Made by a program: the position numbers and the translations under genes | From: Methanosarcina mazei S-6 | Lineage (GTDB): Archaea > Halobacteriota > Methanosarcinia > Methanosarcinales > Methanosarcinaceae | Assembly (NCBI RefSeq): GCF_000970205.1 | Contig: NZ_CP009512.1 | Coordinates: 124,001 to 188,000 of the forward strand | Direction of reading: 5' to 3' | Length of the DNA: 64,000 nucleotides | In this document: piece after piece, positions 1,901 through 9,781 of the stretch | How the letters are laid out: every line of letters starts with the position of its first letter | Numbering within the stretch: the stretch's first letter is position 1 | Notes under the pieces: generated by a model | Seen by the model: only the letters and a program-made list of their open reading frames with translations | What the model was told of the DNA's origin: nothing | The model's database searches: none

Positions 1901-2003
1901 AACCGCGCAGCACCGAGTCTAATCAGGGATTAATTGCTGCAGTATTCCATGGGAAATTTTCAGAGCAAAGATTATATCCCTGTGCACCATTTATGAAAAA
2001 TTG

Positions 2004-2930
2004 ATGTTATTCAAGAACCGGCACGTCATCTCCATGAAAGATTTTTCACGGGAAGAAATCGATTATATTCTGGACATTGCAGAAAAACTCGAACCTGTAG
2101 CCAGGGGGGAAGAAAGGTCCAGGCTTCTTGACGGAAAAATCATTTCTCTTCTTTTTTTTGAACCAAGTACAAGAACACGACTCTCTTTTGAGGTTGCCAC
2201 CCGGAGGCTGGGGGGGCAGGTCCTGAGTCTGGGTTCGGTTGAGGCAAGTTCTGTTATGAAGGGGGAAAATCTTGCTGATACTATCCGCGTGATCAGCAAA
2301 TATGCAGACCTGATTGTGCTGCGTCACCCTCTTGACGGGTCAGCAAGAATGGCTACGGAATTTGCAGCTGTCCCTGTGATCAATGGGGGAGATGGTTCTG
2401 TCCACCATCCTACCCAGACTTTTCTTGACCTCTATACCATCCGCCGAGAAAGCCATCTTGAAGGCTTGAAAATTGCCATGGCAGGAGACCTGAAATATGG
2501 GAGAACAGTACATTCCCTCTGCTATGCCCTTTCCCTGTATGGGGCAGAAATGACTTTTGTTTCACCTCCGGAACTCAGGATGCCCCGGGAAATTGTCCGA
2601 GAACTTCGGAAGAAAAATATCCGCGTAAAGGAAAGCGAGTGCCTTGAGGAAATAATAGGAGATATTGAAGTTCTTTACATGACAAGAGTTCAGAGGGAGC
2701 GTTTTCCTGACCCTCAAGAATACGAAAAGGTTAAGAATAAGTTAAAAATTACGGGAGATCTCTTAAAATCCGCAGATCCCGAACTTAAAATCCTTCACCC
2801 TCTTCCAAGGGTAAATGAAATATCTCCTGATGTTGATGATACTCCCCATGCCCGTTATTTTGAGCAGGCTTTTTATGGAGTTCCTATCAGGATGGCTTTA
2901 CTCGCTCTGACAATAGGGGTGATTGAATGA
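2004..2930 (+). CDS. pyrB: Aspartate carbamoyltransferase catalytic subunit
   Basis: Condenses carbamoyl phosphate with aspartate, the committed step of pyrimidine synthesis, in the cytoplasm. 308 residues, the usual length. Signature residues are present: FFEPSTRTRLSFE (carbamoyl-phosphate loop, S55-T-R-T58), the HHPTQTFLDLYTI block (~132-145), the LYMTRVQRERF loop and HPLPRVNEI near the C-terminus. ATG 2004 is preferred; a TTG directly upstream adds one residue. The stop overlaps the pyrI start by 4 nt (ATGA), so the subunits are translationally coupled for the PyrB-PyrI holoenzyme. No attenuator or PyrR site is seen. Confidence 0.97.
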   Translation: MLFKNRHVISMKDFSREEIDYILDIAEKLEPVARGEERSRLLDGKIISLLFFEPSTRTRLSFEVATRRLGGQVLSLGSVEASSVMKGENLADTIRVISKYADLIVLRHPLDGSARMATEFAAVPVINGGDGSVHHPTQTFLDLYTIRRESHLEGLKIAMAGDLKYGRTVHSLCYALSLYGAEMTFVSPPELRMPREIVRELRKKNIRVKESECLEEIIGDIEVLYMTRVQRERFPDPQEYEKVKNKLKITGDLLKSADPELKILHPLPRVNEISPDVDDTPHARYFEQAFYGVPIRMALLALTIGVIE

Positions 2931-3397
2931 AGGAAAAAAGAGATTTAAAAGTCCAGGCAATCGAGAGTGGAACTGTGATCGATCACATAAAGTCTGGACA
3001 AGCTTTGAACGTCCTGCGCATTCTGGGAATCTCAAGTGCTTTTCGGGCGACTATCAGTTTTGTGATGAACGCTCCCGGAGCAGGAGGAAAAAAAGACGTT
3101 GTCAAGATTGAGGGCAAAGAACTCAGTGTTGAGGAACTTAACAGGATAGCCCTTATCTCTCCTAAAGCTACAATCAATATTATAAGGGATTTCGTGGTGG
3201 TTCAGAAAAATAACGTCGTGCTCCCGTCTTACGTGGAAGGTGTGGTCCGCTGTACGAATTCAAGCTGTATATCAAACAGCAGCGAACCTATAAAATCTAA
3301 ATTCTCGGTAATACAGTCTGAAGAAGAAGGAGTTTCTCTTCACTGCCTGTACTGCGAGCACGTAATTTCCGAAGAGATTGCAGAAAATTTACTATGA
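2927..3397 (+). CDS. pyrI: Aspartate carbamoyltransferase regulatory chain
   Basis: 156 residues, typical PyrI length. The N-terminal ~100 residues form the nucleotide-binding allosteric domain (V..I..GTVIDHI.SGQALNVLRILGI). The C-terminal zinc domain carries C109-x4-C114 and C140-x2-C143, the four ligands that hold PyrI to the catalytic trimer. All four are intact, so regulation of PyrB by nucleotides is expected. It starts inside the last codons of pyrB. A longer ORF in another frame starting at 2923 is a shadow. Confidence 0.97.
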   Translation: MKEKRDLKVQAIESGTVIDHIKSGQALNVLRILGISSAFRATISFVMNAPGAGGKKDVVKIEGKELSVEELNRIALISPKATINIIRDFVVVQKNNVVLPSYVEGVVRCTNSSCISNSSEPIKSKFSVIQSEEEGVSLHCLYCEHVISEEIAENLL

Positions 3398-3684: not shown

Positions 3685-4155
3685 ATGAAAGACGGGAATA
3701 ACACAAACGAAAAAGAAACAGAATATCTAAGTTATCAGGAACGTAACAAACTCCTCTGGAGACTCAGGAGTGACTTTGCCTGGGCAGGAAAGAAAATCCC
3801 TGAAATTGTAGAGATAGATAATGAGGAGTACATGCTGCGCGATATGATTGAGGAACTTGGAGAAATAGATCTGCTCAGTCCGGATGAAATCGCCGAAATC
3901 AGGGCTCTTATCCCTAAACTTCAAGAAAAGGCAAAAGTCAATGAAGAACTGCTCGAAACAGAAGAACTCACAGTGGCAGAAGCAGAAGCTCTCTGTGAAG
4001 AAGCAACCGGGATTTTGCGGGCAGCAATGGACCTTAAGGACAGGCTTGAAGGAAAAATCGGAGAAAAGGGAGCCTCCGAATTCAAGCGTATGCTCAACAC
4101 CCAGAAGCTTGTAGATGAAAAGCGCTGGCAGGAACTTATTAAAAGCTTGAAATGA
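3685..4155 (+). CDS. Small acidic helical protein, paralogue of the gene at 1421
   Basis: 156 residues, strongly acidic (many EE and EAE clusters), no membrane segment. It shares with the 1421-1900 protein the opening YxERNKLLWRLRSDFxWxGKxIPE-type segment (~residues 18-45), the EAEALCEEATGILRA helix (~108-122) and a terminal K..W.EL tail. GAGGGAAAGAG just upstream of ATG 3685 is a plausible ribosome site. Function unknown; possibly DUF5788. It is monocistronic by position. Confidence 0.75.
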   Translation: MKDGNNTNEKETEYLSYQERNKLLWRLRSDFAWAGKKIPEIVEIDNEEYMLRDMIEELGEIDLLSPDEIAEIRALIPKLQEKAKVNEELLETEELTVAEAEALCEEATGILRAAMDLKDRLEGKIGEKGASEFKRMLNTQKLVDEKRWQELIKSLK

Positions 4156-4260: not shown

Positions 4261-4980
4261 TCACAAATGCCTTTCAATAAATGACTTAAGCTCTTCAGCC
4301 GAGGCTTCATCCGTGATCAAAGAATAGTAAGGAGTCCATTCATACAATTTTTTGTGTCTGGTTTTAATATATAGCTGCGTATTCAGATTCCAGAACCGCA
4401 TTTTTTGTTTCATCTCCACAAGCAGAAGGAGGGGAATTATTGAGACCAGTAGCAGAAGTGGCTTCCATTCTCCCTCTGCAACAGCGATGTAAACAAAGAA
4501 TCCACAGAGGGCAATTCCTCCAATTACTAGAAGCAGGGACATTTTCTTTGAACGCTTTTCAAGCCTGCATAACTTCATGCTTTCAATCTCTTCAAAAGGA
4601 ATCTCAAATTTCTTCAGTCTGAAGGCATGCATGTGTACCCCGAATCTGTCTACCAGAACTGCTGCCTCGAGAGTTTTGAGATATAGAAAGTAGTAAAAGA
4701 TGTTAAGCAGGAAGAGACCTGCAAGGAAGAGTGAAATGTCTTCCGGATATCTCAGAAGCAGGCTGATACATATATAAAAAAGTACAAAAACCAGAGTTGT
4801 ATTTGCAGGAAAAATTATATTTGACGTTCGGAACTCCGGGATATTTCCTGTTTTTCCGGAGATCTGGGCTGTATTTATAAAGTTACAAGGCTGTTCCGTT
4901 TGCAATGTCATTTTCCTGCAAGCCGGGCACCAGCCCATCAGTTTTTGGATCTGATCAAAAACAAAAGTTTTAACGGGCAT
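4261..4980 (-). CDS. DUF1673-like membrane protein, sixth of tandem array
   Basis: 239 residues and last in the operon. The N-terminal block MPVKTFVFDQIQKLMGWCP is nearly identical to that of the 6227-6853 protein, and the DNA around the start (about 4938-4987 versus 6812-6861) is also nearly identical. The body differs: two hydrophobic segments (~60-100), then a PH-like middle (DRFGVHMHAFRLKKFEIPFEEIESMKL), two more hydrophobic segments (~150-185) and a C-terminal W.LNTQLYIKTRHKKLYEW region. The start abuts the stop of the preceding gene. The family has no known function; I recognise the KLMGWCP signature as DUF1673 of Methanosarcina. This copy looks mosaic. Confidence 0.8.
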   Translation of the reverse strand: MPVKTFVFDQIQKLMGWCPACRKMTLQTEQPCNFINTAQISGKTGNIPEFRTSNIIFPANTTLVFVLFYICISLLLRYPEDISLFLAGLFLLNIFYYFLYLKTLEAAVLVDRFGVHMHAFRLKKFEIPFEEIESMKLCRLEKRSKKMSLLLVIGGIALCGFFVYIAVAEGEWKPLLLLVSIIPLLLLVEMKQKMRFWNLNTQLYIKTRHKKLYEWTPYYSLITDEASAEELKSFIERHL

Positions 4981-5601
4981 TTATTTTCTCTCCCGAATGA
5001 TATACGAATTTTTCCACTTTCCATACTTTTTATCAAAATAGATCGTTTTGTGATTCTTCCTTTCCCAGTATAGTATCTGAAGATAGCCAAGCCACATGAA
5101 GGCGAGTCCGCCTGCAAAGAAAGAAAGGGTTCCTTTCATGAGAAAATTTCTTTCCAAATCTCCTGCAAAAATCCAGTAAAAAAGTGTGGCATAGAAGATC
5201 AGAGTTATTATTCGAAAAAGTTTTTTATACAGGTTTTTCTTGTTGGAATCATCAAGAACGAGTTTTTGTGCGAGAGTATCGTACCTTTGCATCTGCTTCT
5301 TCCAGCCAAAAATGAAAAAAGTTAAGGAAATGAAAAATCCAGCGAGTAAAGTCACTACATTTACGCCCAATTGGATCATTACCAGGAGATATGTAAGTGT
5401 AAGAAAAGAATCAACTAAGAGAATTCTGCTACTCGACTTCCGGAACCATCCTGTATTTTTCAGACCTCCGTTTTCTCCCCCTGCTCTTTCCGGAACATCA
5501 GAATCAAAATTCTCACAGCTAACATTTCGTCTGGCTTCAGATGCTCTGGCATTCGGGCACCAGCCCATAAGTTTTTTAATGTATTCAATATTCAGGTTCA
5601 C
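4981..5601 (-). CDS. DUF1673-like membrane protein, fifth of tandem array
   Basis: 206 residues. N-terminal MNLNIEYIKKLMGWCPNA signature, then a soluble linker, four hydrophobic segments (~65-100 and ~125-180) and a conserved tail LQILYWERKNHKTIYFDKKYGKWKN. Closest in the array is the 6854-7471 protein (same N-terminus MNLNxEYIKKLMGWCPN and same tail). Its ATG overlaps the previous gene's stop by 4 nt and its stop abuts the next start, so translation is coupled. Function unknown. Confidence 0.8.
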   Translation of the reverse strand: MNLNIEYIKKLMGWCPNARASEARRNVSCENFDSDVPERAGGENGGLKNTGWFRKSSSRILLVDSFLTLTYLLVMIQLGVNVVTLLAGFFISLTFFIFGWKKQMQRYDTLAQKLVLDDSNKKNLYKKLFRIITLIFYATLFYWIFAGDLERNFLMKGTLSFFAGGLAFMWLGYLQILYWERKNHKTIYFDKKYGKWKNSYIIRERK

Positions 5602-6230
5602 AGTTCCCTCTCCTTTTCTCCAAGTGCATACATCTTCTGGAATCCCTTCTCACTTTTTATATAAATTTTCATATGGTTTTCCTTCTCCCAGTAAATTAGC
5701 TGAAGATAACTTCCCCACATCAGTATCCAAGCCCCTGCAATAAAAGAATACATTGACTGAGCGTTAGGAAAATGGAGCATATGAGATAAATGAGACAGTA
5801 AAACCATAAACAAAATTAAGCCCAAAATTATGACTGAGAGAACCCAGATGAATGTTTTTTTAAAGGAAGAGACAACAGCAGGTTTTTTTGTCAGAGCATC
5901 GTACTTATTCATCTGCTTTTTCCAGCCGAGCAAATAGGTAAGTAAAGAAAGTGAAAGGCCCAGAAGGAAAGCCTCTGAGTTTATACCCTTTTGAGATAAC
6001 AAAATTATGAGATAAAAAGTAAAGAATAGTGTTGGTAGAAGAATTCTGACATCATACCTGGAAAAGAGCCTGGAGAATCGGCTGAGAACTTCAGGCCCAC
6101 CGGCTTTTTCTCCTCCAGACTGATCATATGCTTCAAAATTAGCGGGACCAGTCCGGGAGTCCAATCCGGTGGTTTTTGCATAGGGACACCAGCCCACCAA
6201 TTTTTTTATGTATCTGGCTTCCCGGATCAT
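5598..6230 (-). CDS. DUF1673-like membrane protein, fourth of tandem array
   Basis: 210 residues. The N-terminus has the variant IKKLVGWCPYAK, followed by FEAYDQSGGEKAG, a segment also present in the 6227-6853 protein. About four membrane segments are predicted (residues ~75-115 and ~130-185), with GLSLSL.xYLLGWKKQM between the pairs and the family tail LQLIYWEKENHMKIYIKSE. 4-nt ATGA overlaps join it to both neighbours. Function unknown; the shared tail and linker suggest a recent duplicate of its upstream neighbour. Confidence 0.8.
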   Translation of the reverse strand: MIREARYIKKLVGWCPYAKTTGLDSRTGPANFEAYDQSGGEKAGGPEVLSRFSRLFSRYDVRILLPTLFFTFYLIILLSQKGINSEAFLLGLSLSLLTYLLGWKKQMNKYDALTKKPAVVSSFKKTFIWVLSVIILGLILFMVLLSHLSHMLHFPNAQSMYSFIAGAWILMWGSYLQLIYWEKENHMKIYIKSEKGFQKMYALGEKEREL

Positions 6231-6853
6231 AGTTCTCCCCCCTTTTCCTCAAGGACATACAGCTTTTGCTGTGCATTTTCTCTTTTTATATATATTTTCA
6301 TATGGTTCTTCCTCTCCCAGTAAATTAGCTGGAAATAGAAACCCCATATTAAAATCAGAGTTCCCAAAACAAAAGAGTTCAGTGTCTGATCGTTAAGAAG
6401 ATAAAAATAAGGTGAGATATAAGGCAAGAAAACCAGAAGCAAAGTAATACCCAAGAATAGAAATAAGACGACACAAGCTAATGTCTTTCTAAAGGAAGGA
6501 GAAATAACAGGTTTTTCTTTCACGGCATTGTATTGATGCATCTGCTTTTTCCAGCCAAGCAAGTAGATCGGTAAAGAAAGTGAAAGGCCAAGAAGGAAAG
6601 CTTCCGTATTTATATCTTTTTGGAATAGGTTTATATAAATAGGAGTAAAGAAAAATGGAAACAGGAAGAGCTGGATATCAAGTCTGGAATGCTTGTCTGA
6701 AGCCTTCGAAACGTTTGATTTTTCTTTTCCCGATTGGTCATATGCTTCAAAATTAGAAAAGCTATTTTGATTTACGGCTTCAAGTTTTTTTGCGTTCGGG
6801 CACCATCCCATCAGTTTTTTGATCTGATCAAAAACAAAAATTTTAACGGGCAT
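6227..6853 (-). CDS. DUF1673-like membrane protein, third of tandem array
   Basis: 208 residues with the KKLMGWCPNAKK signature after a MPVKIFVFDQI leader, the NFEAYDQSGKEKS linker, about four membrane segments, a central LLGWKKQMHQYNA loop and the tail LQLIYWERKNHMKIYIKRE. Its leader is shared with the last gene of the array, while its body matches the next gene, so leader and body have different closest relatives. The start abuts the previous stop. No known function. Confidence 0.8.
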   Translation of the reverse strand: MPVKIFVFDQIKKLMGWCPNAKKLEAVNQNSFSNFEAYDQSGKEKSNVSKASDKHSRLDIQLFLFPFFFTPIYINLFQKDINTEAFLLGLSLSLPIYLLGWKKQMHQYNAVKEKPVISPSFRKTLACVVLFLFLGITLLLVFLPYISPYFYLLNDQTLNSFVLGTLILIWGFYFQLIYWERKNHMKIYIKRENAQQKLYVLEEKGGEL

Positions 6854-7471
6854 TTATTTTTCCCCCTGAATAATGTATGATTTCTTCCATGTCCCGTAAC
6901 TTTTGTTGAAATAGATTGTTTTATGGTTCTTTTTTTCCCAGTATATTAGCTGTAAATAGCTAAGCCACATTCCTACAATTAAACCACCCGCAAATGAAAA
7001 TATTGCCTGTAGTGAAGGTTCATATCCTTTAATATAAAGAAGATATATCAAAATCAAAAATAAGTATCCAAGTATGTAATACATTATTTTCTTATCTGAA
7101 TAGTCAACTACCGGACATTTCACCAGAGCATCATATCTTCGCATTTGTTTTTTCCAGTCAAATATAACTATAAACAGGACAATGAAAAGTCCGACAAGTA
7201 AATGGATGAAATTTACACCCAGAGTTAGATTTATTCCCAGTTGATTGATTACAAGAAAATAAGCAAATGTGAAGAATGTGTTAATTAAAAGGGTTTGGAT
7301 ACGCGTTTTTCGGAACCATTCAGGGGGTTTCAGATCTTCGTTTTCTCCCTTTTCTCTGTCAGGAACATTGGAATCAAAGCTCTCAATGTTAAAATGTCGT
7401 CTTGCTTCATTTGTTTTTGTGTTAGGGCACCATCCCATCAGTTTTTTAATGTATTCAGTATTAAGGTTCAC
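6854..7471 (-). CDS. DUF1673-like membrane protein, second of tandem array
   Basis: 205 residues: MNLNTEYIKKLMGWCPNTK leader, acidic linker, two membrane hairpins and the tail LQLIYWEKKNHKTIYFNKSYG. It is the clear duplicate partner of the 4981-5601 protein. ATG overlaps the stop of the first array gene by 4 nt. Cytoplasmic placement of the Cys-Pro leader is plausible because no signal peptide precedes it. Function unknown. Confidence 0.8.
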   Translation of the reverse strand: MNLNTEYIKKLMGWCPNTKTNEARRHFNIESFDSNVPDREKGENEDLKPPEWFRKTRIQTLLINTFFTFAYFLVINQLGINLTLGVNFIHLLVGLFIVLFIVIFDWKKQMRRYDALVKCPVVDYSDKKIMYYILGYLFLILIYLLYIKGYEPSLQAIFSFAGGLIVGMWLSYLQLIYWEKKNHKTIYFNKSYGTWKKSYIIQGEK

Positions 7472-8187
7472 AGTTTCCCCTCCTTTTCCCCAATAGCATA
7501 TATCTTTTCGAGGCTATTTTCAAATATTATATAAATTTTCATATGATTTTTCTTCTCCCAGTATACATCCGTAAGGTAATACAGAAAGGCTGTCAAACAA
7601 GTGCCAAGTATAAATGCCATAACTGCCATGTTGAATGAACCGAAGTAAAGAAGAAATACCAGAGGAGCTGAATTAAAATTAAAGTAGTACAGCAAAGCTA
7701 TCAAACAAAAAGCAGAGATTAAAAATAAAACGAATCCCCAGTTAAATTCTGAAAATAAGAGATACAGTGACCCCAGGGATAGTATTAGATTTATAACTCT
7801 CCATTTCGACGATACAGTTATAATTTTTATTTTTCTGCTTGAGTTCTTTATGTCGTCCAGATAACTCCAGTTCCAGATACAAAAGAGCAGGTTACAAATA
7901 ATTCCGAAAATTAACCCGTGTATAAAAGCTTCATTTTTGAGAGATTCTCCCTGGAATGCAACCCAATATATGGAAAAGATTGTGAGCACGGAGGAAAATA
8001 TTAATGACCTGTTACGGCGTTTGTTCCACCAGCCAGAAGGTAAAATAGGAGTATTTCCGGCATCTCTTCCCCTGGATTGGTTATCAGCTTCCAAATATTC
8101 AGGGCAGATGGAATGCCTGGTTTCAAGTGTTTTTGTATTCGGACACCATCCCATCAGTTTCCTTATACTCTTTGTGAATACATCCAT
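7468..8187 (-). CDS. DUF1673-like membrane protein, first of tandem array
   Basis: 239 residues, the most divergent member. It has a MDVFTKSIRKLMGWCPNTK leader, then about six hydrophobic segments rather than four (residues ~75-115, ~130-185, ~190-215) and the family tail DVYWEKKNHMKIYIIFE. It lies 35 nt downstream of the HTH gene on the same strand, which suggests that the regulator and all six membrane proteins form one transcript. Function unknown. Confidence 0.78.
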   Translation of the reverse strand: MDVFTKSIRKLMGWCPNTKTLETRHSICPEYLEADNQSRGRDAGNTPILPSGWWNKRRNRSLIFSSVLTIFSIYWVAFQGESLKNEAFIHGLIFGIICNLLFCIWNWSYLDDIKNSSRKIKIITVSSKWRVINLILSLGSLYLLFSEFNWGFVLFLISAFCLIALLYYFNFNSAPLVFLLYFGSFNMAVMAFILGTCLTAFLYYLTDVYWEKKNHMKIYIIFENSLEKIYAIGEKEGKL

Positions 8188-8222
8188 CGTTTACCCAATC
8201 CCCAATTTTTACCTGCCTTAAG

Positions 8223-8678
8223 TCAGGCCTTTTCCACCAATTCTTTCAATTTTCCAAACAATTCATCCGCAATCTTTGTGGGATCTTCCGAACTCTTAAG
8301 TTTGAGCTGCATTTCTTCTGCAAAGTCCCAAAGGAGTTCGATACATTCCCTGTATCGATCACAGGAACCGCATTCTCCTTCGTGTTCATACCAGACCTGT
8401 AACCCGTGTTTTGCCGAGACAAAGATTATTGCGCTGGTTTTGAAAGGGATCGATCTGCCGAATAGAATTCCTTTCTTTGGGTCCAGCTTTTCTACTTCTA
8501 TCCTGTTTGCCCTGGCCATCTCAAGTAGAGTTTCTTCAATGCGCTTATCCATACTGAGGAGTGCTCTTGAGATTGCCTGCCTTGAGATCCCGAACTGCTT
8601 TGCAATATTGATGTTCGGGAGCCCGTTTCGGCGCAGGACCCAGAATTCAAACTGTTTTTCACCTTCCGGAAGGAACAT
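8223..8678 (-). CDS. Helix-turn-helix regulator with C-terminal Cys cluster
   Basis: 151 residues. Residues ~1-50 form a winged/sigma-region-4-like HTH (FWVLRRNGLPNINIAKQFGISRQAISRALLSM). A middle beta segment follows, then CGSCDRYREC (C-x2-C-x5-C, ~105-114), which could bind a metal or sense redox state, and a helical tail. This is inference: no family name is certain. It is first in the minus-strand run leading into the six membrane-protein genes, so it is the obvious candidate for controlling them. ATG at 8678 follows an AT-rich upstream region. Confidence 0.8.
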   Translation of the reverse strand: MFLPEGEKQFEFWVLRRNGLPNINIAKQFGISRQAISRALLSMDKRIEETLLEMARANRIEVEKLDPKKGILFGRSIPFKTSAIIFVSAKHGLQVWYEHEGECGSCDRYRECIELLWDFAEEMQLKLKSSEDPTKIADELFGKLKELVEKA

Positions 8679-8971
8679 AAGTAAACATCTCTATGTTGAC
8701 TATTTATAGCTTTCTACCTCCTTGACTTTTTGAGCTTTTTCTTTGAAGATTTTTTTCTCTCTGGTAGAAAATTTGTAGTATTTTACATGATTGTTTGATG
8801 ATCTGGCCATAAAATATATATTGGAAAAGACTATACTTGATTTTAAAGTAAGATTATTAATCGGATAATATATAAATATATGATATATTTAGGTGCAAAA
8901 TATACAATCTTGGAATTAAATGAGGCATTCTATATGGAAAGAAGACAATTCTGAATGGAAATTTAGAAATT
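8679..8971. other. AT-rich promoter region of the HTH/DUF1673 operon
   Basis: Strongly AT-rich, with several TATA-like stretches (around 8810-8822 and 8865-8890). It separates the minus-strand HTH gene from a plus-strand pseudogene. No gene is supported here. Confidence 0.5.
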
Positions 8972-9364: not shown

Positions 9365-9781
9365 ATGAGAAGCTTTCGAAGAAGTCTAATGCTCTGGATT
9401 TCCCTTATGGTACTGATACTTGTATCGCTGTTTGTAGTTGTTCCCTATATCCTGGTCGGGCCTCCTACTCCTCTTTTCTACGTCCGAAACCACGATGTCG
9501 GAGTTCACGAGCTCAGAGTAGAAGTCTGCGACTTAAAAAATAATTCCATACTCGATAAAACATACGAACTTTCAGCAGGAGAGGAAATCTATTATGCCAA
9601 ACCTTTCAGGTTCCTTGTTCCAGAGTTTGAAGGTGAGGGTTATACATTCGAATTTACACTTGATAACAGTTTTAAGGAAACACATAGTACGAACATTCAG
9701 CCCTGGAACACAGTTCACGTAGAACTATACTCTGATTATGAGGAAGGTCAACCTCTTCTAGTAGGAGAAATGACCGTCTAA
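9365..9781 (+). CDS. Secreted or membrane-anchored small beta protein
   Basis: 138 residues. A strong N-terminal hydrophobic segment (residues ~7-31, SLMLWISLMVLILVSLFVVV) after three Arg acts as signal or anchor. The rest (LFYVRNHDVGVHELRVEVCD ... WNTVHVELYSD) looks like a small extracellular beta sandwich with one Cys. No family recognised. Upstream lies the HTH pseudogene; downstream is a minisatellite. No strong Shine-Dalgarno is visible before ATG 9365. Confidence 0.7.
   Translation: MRSFRRSLMLWISLMVLILVSLFVVVPYILVGPPTPLFYVRNHDVGVHELRVEVCDLKNNSILDKTYELSAGEEIYYAKPFRFLVPEFEGEGYTFEFTLDNSFKETHSTNIQPWNTVHVELYSDYEEGQPLLVGEMTV

Follow-up and report, generated by a model that had tools for sequence, protein, structure and literature searches.

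Passages of PMC1626106 describe SdpR-SdpI of Bacillus subtilis as an operon with two parts, the autorepressor SdpR and the polytopic membrane protein SdpI, which both confers protection and sequesters SdpR at the membrane. In the passages of PMC11237479 on HAAS-PadR, the HAAS domain, which has three helices and a GxP motif, is the N-terminal adaptor on diverse bodies with multiple transmembrane (TM) segments, always beside one standalone helix-turn-helix (HTH) protein, an arrangement proposed there as an alternative to two-component systems. Here we analyzed a gene cluster in a stretch of 64,000 nucleotides (nt) from Methanosarcina mazei S-6 (NZ_CP009512.1, positions 124,001 to 188,000; the window), in which the gene of an HTH regulator, called REG below, is followed by six membrane protein genes (c1 to c6) with a common short N-terminal leader that contains GWCP. 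The linkage of these genes, the conservation of an operator, the portability of the leader and the pairing of leader types with REG types, all read from sequence, suggest with somewhat better than even probability an autoregulated envelope-response module, in which the cytosolic leader of membrane sensors docks REG.

Like SdpR-SdpI, the cluster combines a regulator that has its own operator, predicted by sequence, with co-encoded polytopic membrane proteins, and SdpI-type bodies bear the GWCP leader in three proteins of other genomes. It differs in that the window has DUF1673 bodies and no SdpI or DUF1648 body, in that the leader is a separate peptide with many unrelated bodies per regulator, and in the regulator itself: SdpR belongs to the ArsR family, whereas REG had no ArsR Pfam match at E up to 1. 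The likeness to HAAS-PadR is that a single HTH gene lies next to genes for diverse TM bodies which share an N-terminal adaptor; here, however, this adaptor is ~20 residues long and REG is no PadR protein, and no Pfam match to HAAS (DUF1700-like) or to the PadR winged HTH was found in REG or c1 to c6 at E up to 1. By analogy, SdpI/SdpR would be a described precedent for the capture of REG, and HAAS-PadR a predicted one.

The membrane protein family is known: arCOG06827 is listed as "Membrane protein expansion in Methanosarcina, MGWCP motif, DUF1673" (PMC4158269, table row, 2014), and its expansion in Methanosarcina is also described in PMC4390880. The passages of both papers on the family give no regulator, operator or function for DUF1673. 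A literature search on the DUF1673/MGWCP family returned nothing beyond these two papers, and a broader search nothing that we recognized as the same module. New in this work are the regulator, the operator, the leader portability and the leader/regulator matching; the function of the family is unpublished as far as we searched.

Gene cluster and conservation

The initial annotation had described an HTH gene with a Cys cluster, followed by coupled genes that overlap by 4 nt or abut, and the coordinates agree: 35 nt separate REG and c1, the pairs c1/c2, c3/c4 and c4/c5 overlap by 4 nt, and c2/c3 and c5/c6 abut. It had also counted six paralogues with KLMGWCP, which holds in part. The motif KL[MV]GWCP lies within residues 10-19 in 6/6 proteins, as KLMGWCP in five and as KLVGWCP in c4. 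PF07895 (DUF1673; Pfam curated cut-off 30.4 bits) matches c1 to c5 over their full length with 159-250 bits, and pairwise identity among these five is 26-52%. To call c6 a plain paralogue would be wrong: its match of 35.7 bits exceeds the cut-off but covers residues 7-102 only, its identity to c1 to c5 is 15-26%, and the upstream and leader DNA that it has in common with c3 extends to about codon 20, where homology ends. The motif DNA pattern RTGGGNTGGTGYCC had 6 matches in the whole 4.14 Mb genome, every one at c1 to c6, and its reversed control had 0 matches in the same genome.

Across 392 genomes of the phylum, DUF1673 was found in 53 and REG in 71, and REG was present in 52 of the 53 genomes with DUF1673, a family also present in Methanosarcina acetivorans. 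Both occurred in 36 of 59 relatives (window genome included), DUF1673 only in 1, REG only in 3 and neither in 19. In the 40 fetched loci mapped together with the window, REG is followed by leader genes in varying number. Viral contigs contained 0 relatives of REG. This linkage supports the earlier view that the regulator and the membrane genes form one module; the module is genuine and conserved, and an artefact is excluded.

Regulator and predicted operator

REGs within the genus are 84-93% identical to that of the window, compared with the 26-52% among c1 to c5. Among REG loci of named organisms, those nearest to the window belong to Methanosarcina. Four residues, H99, C103, C106 and C112 (H-x3-C-x2-C-x5-C), were invariant in 80/80 aligned REGs, the alignment covering 80 of 83 REG open reading frames (ORFs) after exclusion of 3 short ones. 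This is the spacing of His-Cys3 (H-C3) [4Fe-4S] sites of the NuoG and FeFe hydrogenase type, yet REG scored below the cut-offs of the corresponding Pfam families (PF10588, 13.4 vs 27; PF22609, 11.8 vs 27), and zinc is as likely as [4Fe-4S] at this cluster. The predicted model of REG (predicted local distance difference test, pLDDT, 86; one of five models was much better) has an HTH, four strands and two C-terminal helices. Its HTH aligned with EnfR, a member of the Tfx family, as the top match (8hno; Z 7.1, root-mean-square deviation 1.4, 48 residues aligned, 31% identity), with many other HTH proteins close behind (Z 5.6-7.0). The C-terminal H-C3 domain is unmatched in this comparison, and REG scored 15.5 bits against the Tfx family (TIGR00721), below the cut-off of 60.25. 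A sequence search against solved structures returned nothing convincing for REG or DUF1673. The TAG at codon 150 of REG was considered as a pyrrolysine codon and rejected; it is an ordinary end, because TGA comes two codons later in the species shown.

According to passages of PMC10570040, the pseudo-palindrome bound by EnfR has its centre 21 nt before a start codon. Upstream of REG, the inverted repeat GTCAAC-N8-GTTKAC was found at ≤60 nt in 82/83 ORFs, and it is predicted to be the auto-operator of REG. Its distance to the REG start is 2 nt in 79/82 cases, a TATA-like box lies just upstream of it in 74/82, and an alignment of 36 REG upstream regions places the palindrome between this box and the start codon. 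The initial annotation had proposed that the regulator binds upstream DNA, for which the conserved repeat provides backing; binding itself is a prediction. A second conserved element (TATGGCCAGATCATCAAA) lies 109-111 nt from the predicted operator in 18 loci. In L200, L206 and L207 the distance is 121 nt, longer by 10-12 nt or about one helical turn, and the element is present at lipoprotein loci L134 and L135 as well.

A strict operator pattern gave 45 matches in the 59 genomes, 33 of them directly at the REG start. Nine of the 12 non-REG sites were read (G013:2846532, G022:C42 and G025:C15 were left out): 2 lie before GWCP genes whose REG is deleted or decayed, 3 precede an ATP-binding cassette (ABC) exporter, 1 precedes lipoproteins, and 3 precede a Yip1 gene, which at two of these sites is followed by ABC and MacB genes. 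One Yip1/MacB cluster and two LolA-like lipoprotein loci were added by a symmetrical operator pattern (G028:737364 was left out of the sites read). The sites G001:3246701, G020:933760 and G058:C8 were unconvincing on inspection. The extra operator copies probably arose by duplication, because decayed REG 5' ends adjoin several of them. The window's own genome has a second operator at locus L122 (G000:C1:354000-362500), where it is followed by a decayed REG start and by lipoprotein genes in tandem.

Leader peptide and membrane bodies

Using a body-only profile that ignored the leader, we collected 135 DUF1673 bodies, of which 127 had GWCP, 7 had none (one of these masked by N) and 1 was cut. 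Over all loci, 264 leader rows were gathered, and 260 leader-stripped bodies fell into 26 groups, a number that includes singletons, two masked sequences and one chance match. The DUF1673 group had 128 members, and two further groups had 30 and 28, c6 resembling the latter. Smaller groups included 22 members with weak DUF6159 or GPDPase-membrane matches, 7 SdpI-type members (three proteins tested against Pfam, all with PF13630 and PF07853) and 2 polysaccharide flippases. A fusion of the GWCP leader to a polysaccharide flippase occurs at L126:4740-6446 and L127, where its neighbours are a second copy of REG and an ABC exporter. As with c3 and c6, like leaders that are tied to position occur with differing bodies in other genomes too, and homologous exchange at the leader DNA would be the simplest cause of this sharing.

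The AlphaFold2 (AF2) model of c5 (pLDDT 73) shows the leader as a helix before a tether of low confidence; it also has four long helices and a beta hairpin. A PH-like domain had been suspected in DUF1673 from sequence and was rejected on this model, which has the four helices and the hairpin instead; a fold search with the model gave a best Z of 4.0, too low to be informative. WCP belongs to an N-terminal tail that is rich in K/R and of low confidence, and Lys/Arg counts favour cytosolic N- and C-termini of the membrane proteins, in the same compartment as REG. The DUF1673 alignment has a single conserved Cys. Against the PADLOC defence database, 0 matches were found among the 7 proteins tested.

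Leader types and regulator types

Ten REGs form a monophyletic clade of paralogues, REG2 (FastTree support 1.0), whose operator half-sites are GTAAAY...ATTTAC, unlike those of the other REGs (REG1). Genes downstream of REG2 had 16 GLC[RP] leaders (14 GLCR and 2 GLCP) and 0 GWCP. Downstream of REG1 there were 242 GWCP and 6 other rows; among these six, one GWCR and one GLCP look real, and two GLCR, one GFCR and one GYCR are chance matches by eye that are still counted. The bodies in REG2 operons are homologous to GWCP bodies (one pair is 60% identical over 305 residues), and in genomes with both REG types the leaders sort by regulator, for example at L183 and L189. The REG2-operon leader of L189, RVTEVIRGWLGLCPH, has REG1-type flanking residues and L instead of W; L170 has a truncated GLCPK gene after REG2, and the leader of L174 reads VLCPK. 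An orphan DUF1673 gene at L083 (G015:C201) has SWCS for GWCP, with a C-terminal remnant of REG adjoining, after a lipoprotein gene.

REG1 and REG2 differ at S32T and A35G in the HTH and at I84Y, R108E, L115F, L116I and F141L elsewhere. The pairing of R108E with leader PN->RK, and of L115F with W->L, is suggestive of contact; as it is seen in one clade only, this covariation could be coincidental. A pairing code may be put forward tentatively, with the balance of probability leaning against it: REG1 and REG2 would each read the leader of their own type, GWCP for REG1 and GLC[RP]K for REG2, on whatever membrane protein bears it, leader swapping would recruit sensors while the channels stay insulated, and the leader Cys may bind the His-Cys3 metal site of REG.

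Coordinates and neighbouring genes

Table 1. Genes of the cluster and elements upstream of REG, in window positions.
Feature	Position	Strand	Motif DNA	Description
REG	8678-8223	-		151-aa (amino acid) HTH regulator, C-terminal H-x3-C-x2-C-x5-C
c1	8187-7468	-	8141-8154	leader IRKLMGWCP, DUF1673 body
c2	7471-6854	-	7425-7438	leader IKKLMGWCP, DUF1673 body
c3	6853-6227	-	6798-6811	leader IKKLMGWCP, DUF1673 body
c4	6230-5598	-	6184-6197	leader IKKLVGWCP, DUF1673 body
c5	5601-4981	-	5555-5568	leader IKKLMGWCP, DUF1673 body
c6	4980-4261	-	4925-4938	leader IQKLMGWCP (c3-like) on a different membrane body
Predicted REG operator	8681..8700	.		inverted repeat GTCAACAT-N4-ATGTTTAC, 2 nt before the REG start codon
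TATA-like box	8701..8708	-		TATAAATA, immediately upstream of the predicted operator; from sequence and alignment
Second conserved upstream element	8794..8811	-		TATGGCCAGATCATCAAA, at a near-fixed distance from the predicted operator; from alignment

Upstream of REG, a divergent ORF of 138 aa (9365-9781) had no Pfam match above the cut-off. Two DUF5788 (PF19101) paralogues (1421-1900 and 3685-4155, + strand) lie on either side of a pyrB-like region (2001-3397).

Discussion

We infer operator binding, leader docking, sequestration, a direction of control and a signal for this module along the following lines. By binding the palindrome that separates its start codon from the TATA box, REG would repress the operon; in some species, envelope genes at other loci would be repressed too. 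The co-encoded membrane proteins would be varied envelope sensors or effectors, whose cytosolic leader, [IV]-[KR]-K-L-M-G-W-C-P, would dock REG from a flexible tether. On an envelope change or a hostile compound sensed by the membrane body, REG would be held at, or released from, the membrane, and this capture or release would induce the operon and the regulon. The leader as the meeting point with REG, whose gene is nearly always its neighbour, is the most economical account.

Several observations weigh against this mechanism. G043 (locus L102) has four GWCP genes and no REG that we found, and its genome has no match to the operator patterns. Six loci (L090, L105, L108, L109, L111 and L204) have REG1 without a downstream leader ORF in our scan, although in L108 and L109 the motif DNA directly follows REG. 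At L101, one GLCP leader stands behind REG1. The match between leader and REG represents few evolutionary events, because REG2 is a single clade, and it could partly reflect the spread of a leader within one operon. Some of the extra operators may be relics with no working role, and confidence in the DUF1673 model was moderate (pLDDT 73).

The alternative that survives best, which we consider unlikely but far from negligible, gives the leader the role of an insertion, targeting or assembly signal for this class of membrane proteins and limits REG to the control of operon transcription, with no contact to the leader. A short helix before a flexible tether, close to the membrane, would suit such a signal, and neighbours could swap leaders by recombination at conserved DNA, as c3 and c6 suggest. 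However, the motif DNA is found nowhere else in the window's genome, and the leader type shifts with the REG paralogue while the body remains homologous, down to the L189 leader in which REG1-type flanks are kept and W is replaced by L.

That the cluster is an immunity array, each body guarding against another toxin or antimicrobial with REG as an ordinary operon repressor, appears improbable to us. Turnover and tandem expansion, the SdpI-type bodies and the place of the family among archaeal "dark matter islands" in published passages are in line with it, but PADLOC matched 0/7 proteins, and the shared leader and its match to the REG type would be left unexplained.

Metal or thiol (redox) chemistry by a membrane hetero-oligomer of six WCP proteins is very improbable: the leader Cys is nearly universal (127/135 body matches) and the H-C3 cluster of REG is invariant, but DUF1673 has only the one conserved Cys, the bodies are unrelated, with SdpI and flippase among them, and copy number varies widely. 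The initial annotation had raised such chemistry at the membrane, where it is doubtful because the K/R-rich tail that bears WCP is predicted to lie in the cytosol; in REG it is plausible because the H-C3 cluster is the same in 80/80 sequences. A fixed hetero-oligomer or a dosage need, also suggested there, is unsupported because copy number varies and unrelated families interchange behind the same leader.

If REG is indeed docked by the leader, a "dark matter" membrane family of methanogens would become a testable signalling system, and the occurrence of one tag on unrelated membrane proteins would be accounted for. The split between REG1 and REG2 would be suited to a specificity-swap experiment, and the module would be an archaeal counterpart to the regulator-sequestering membrane proteins of bacteria.

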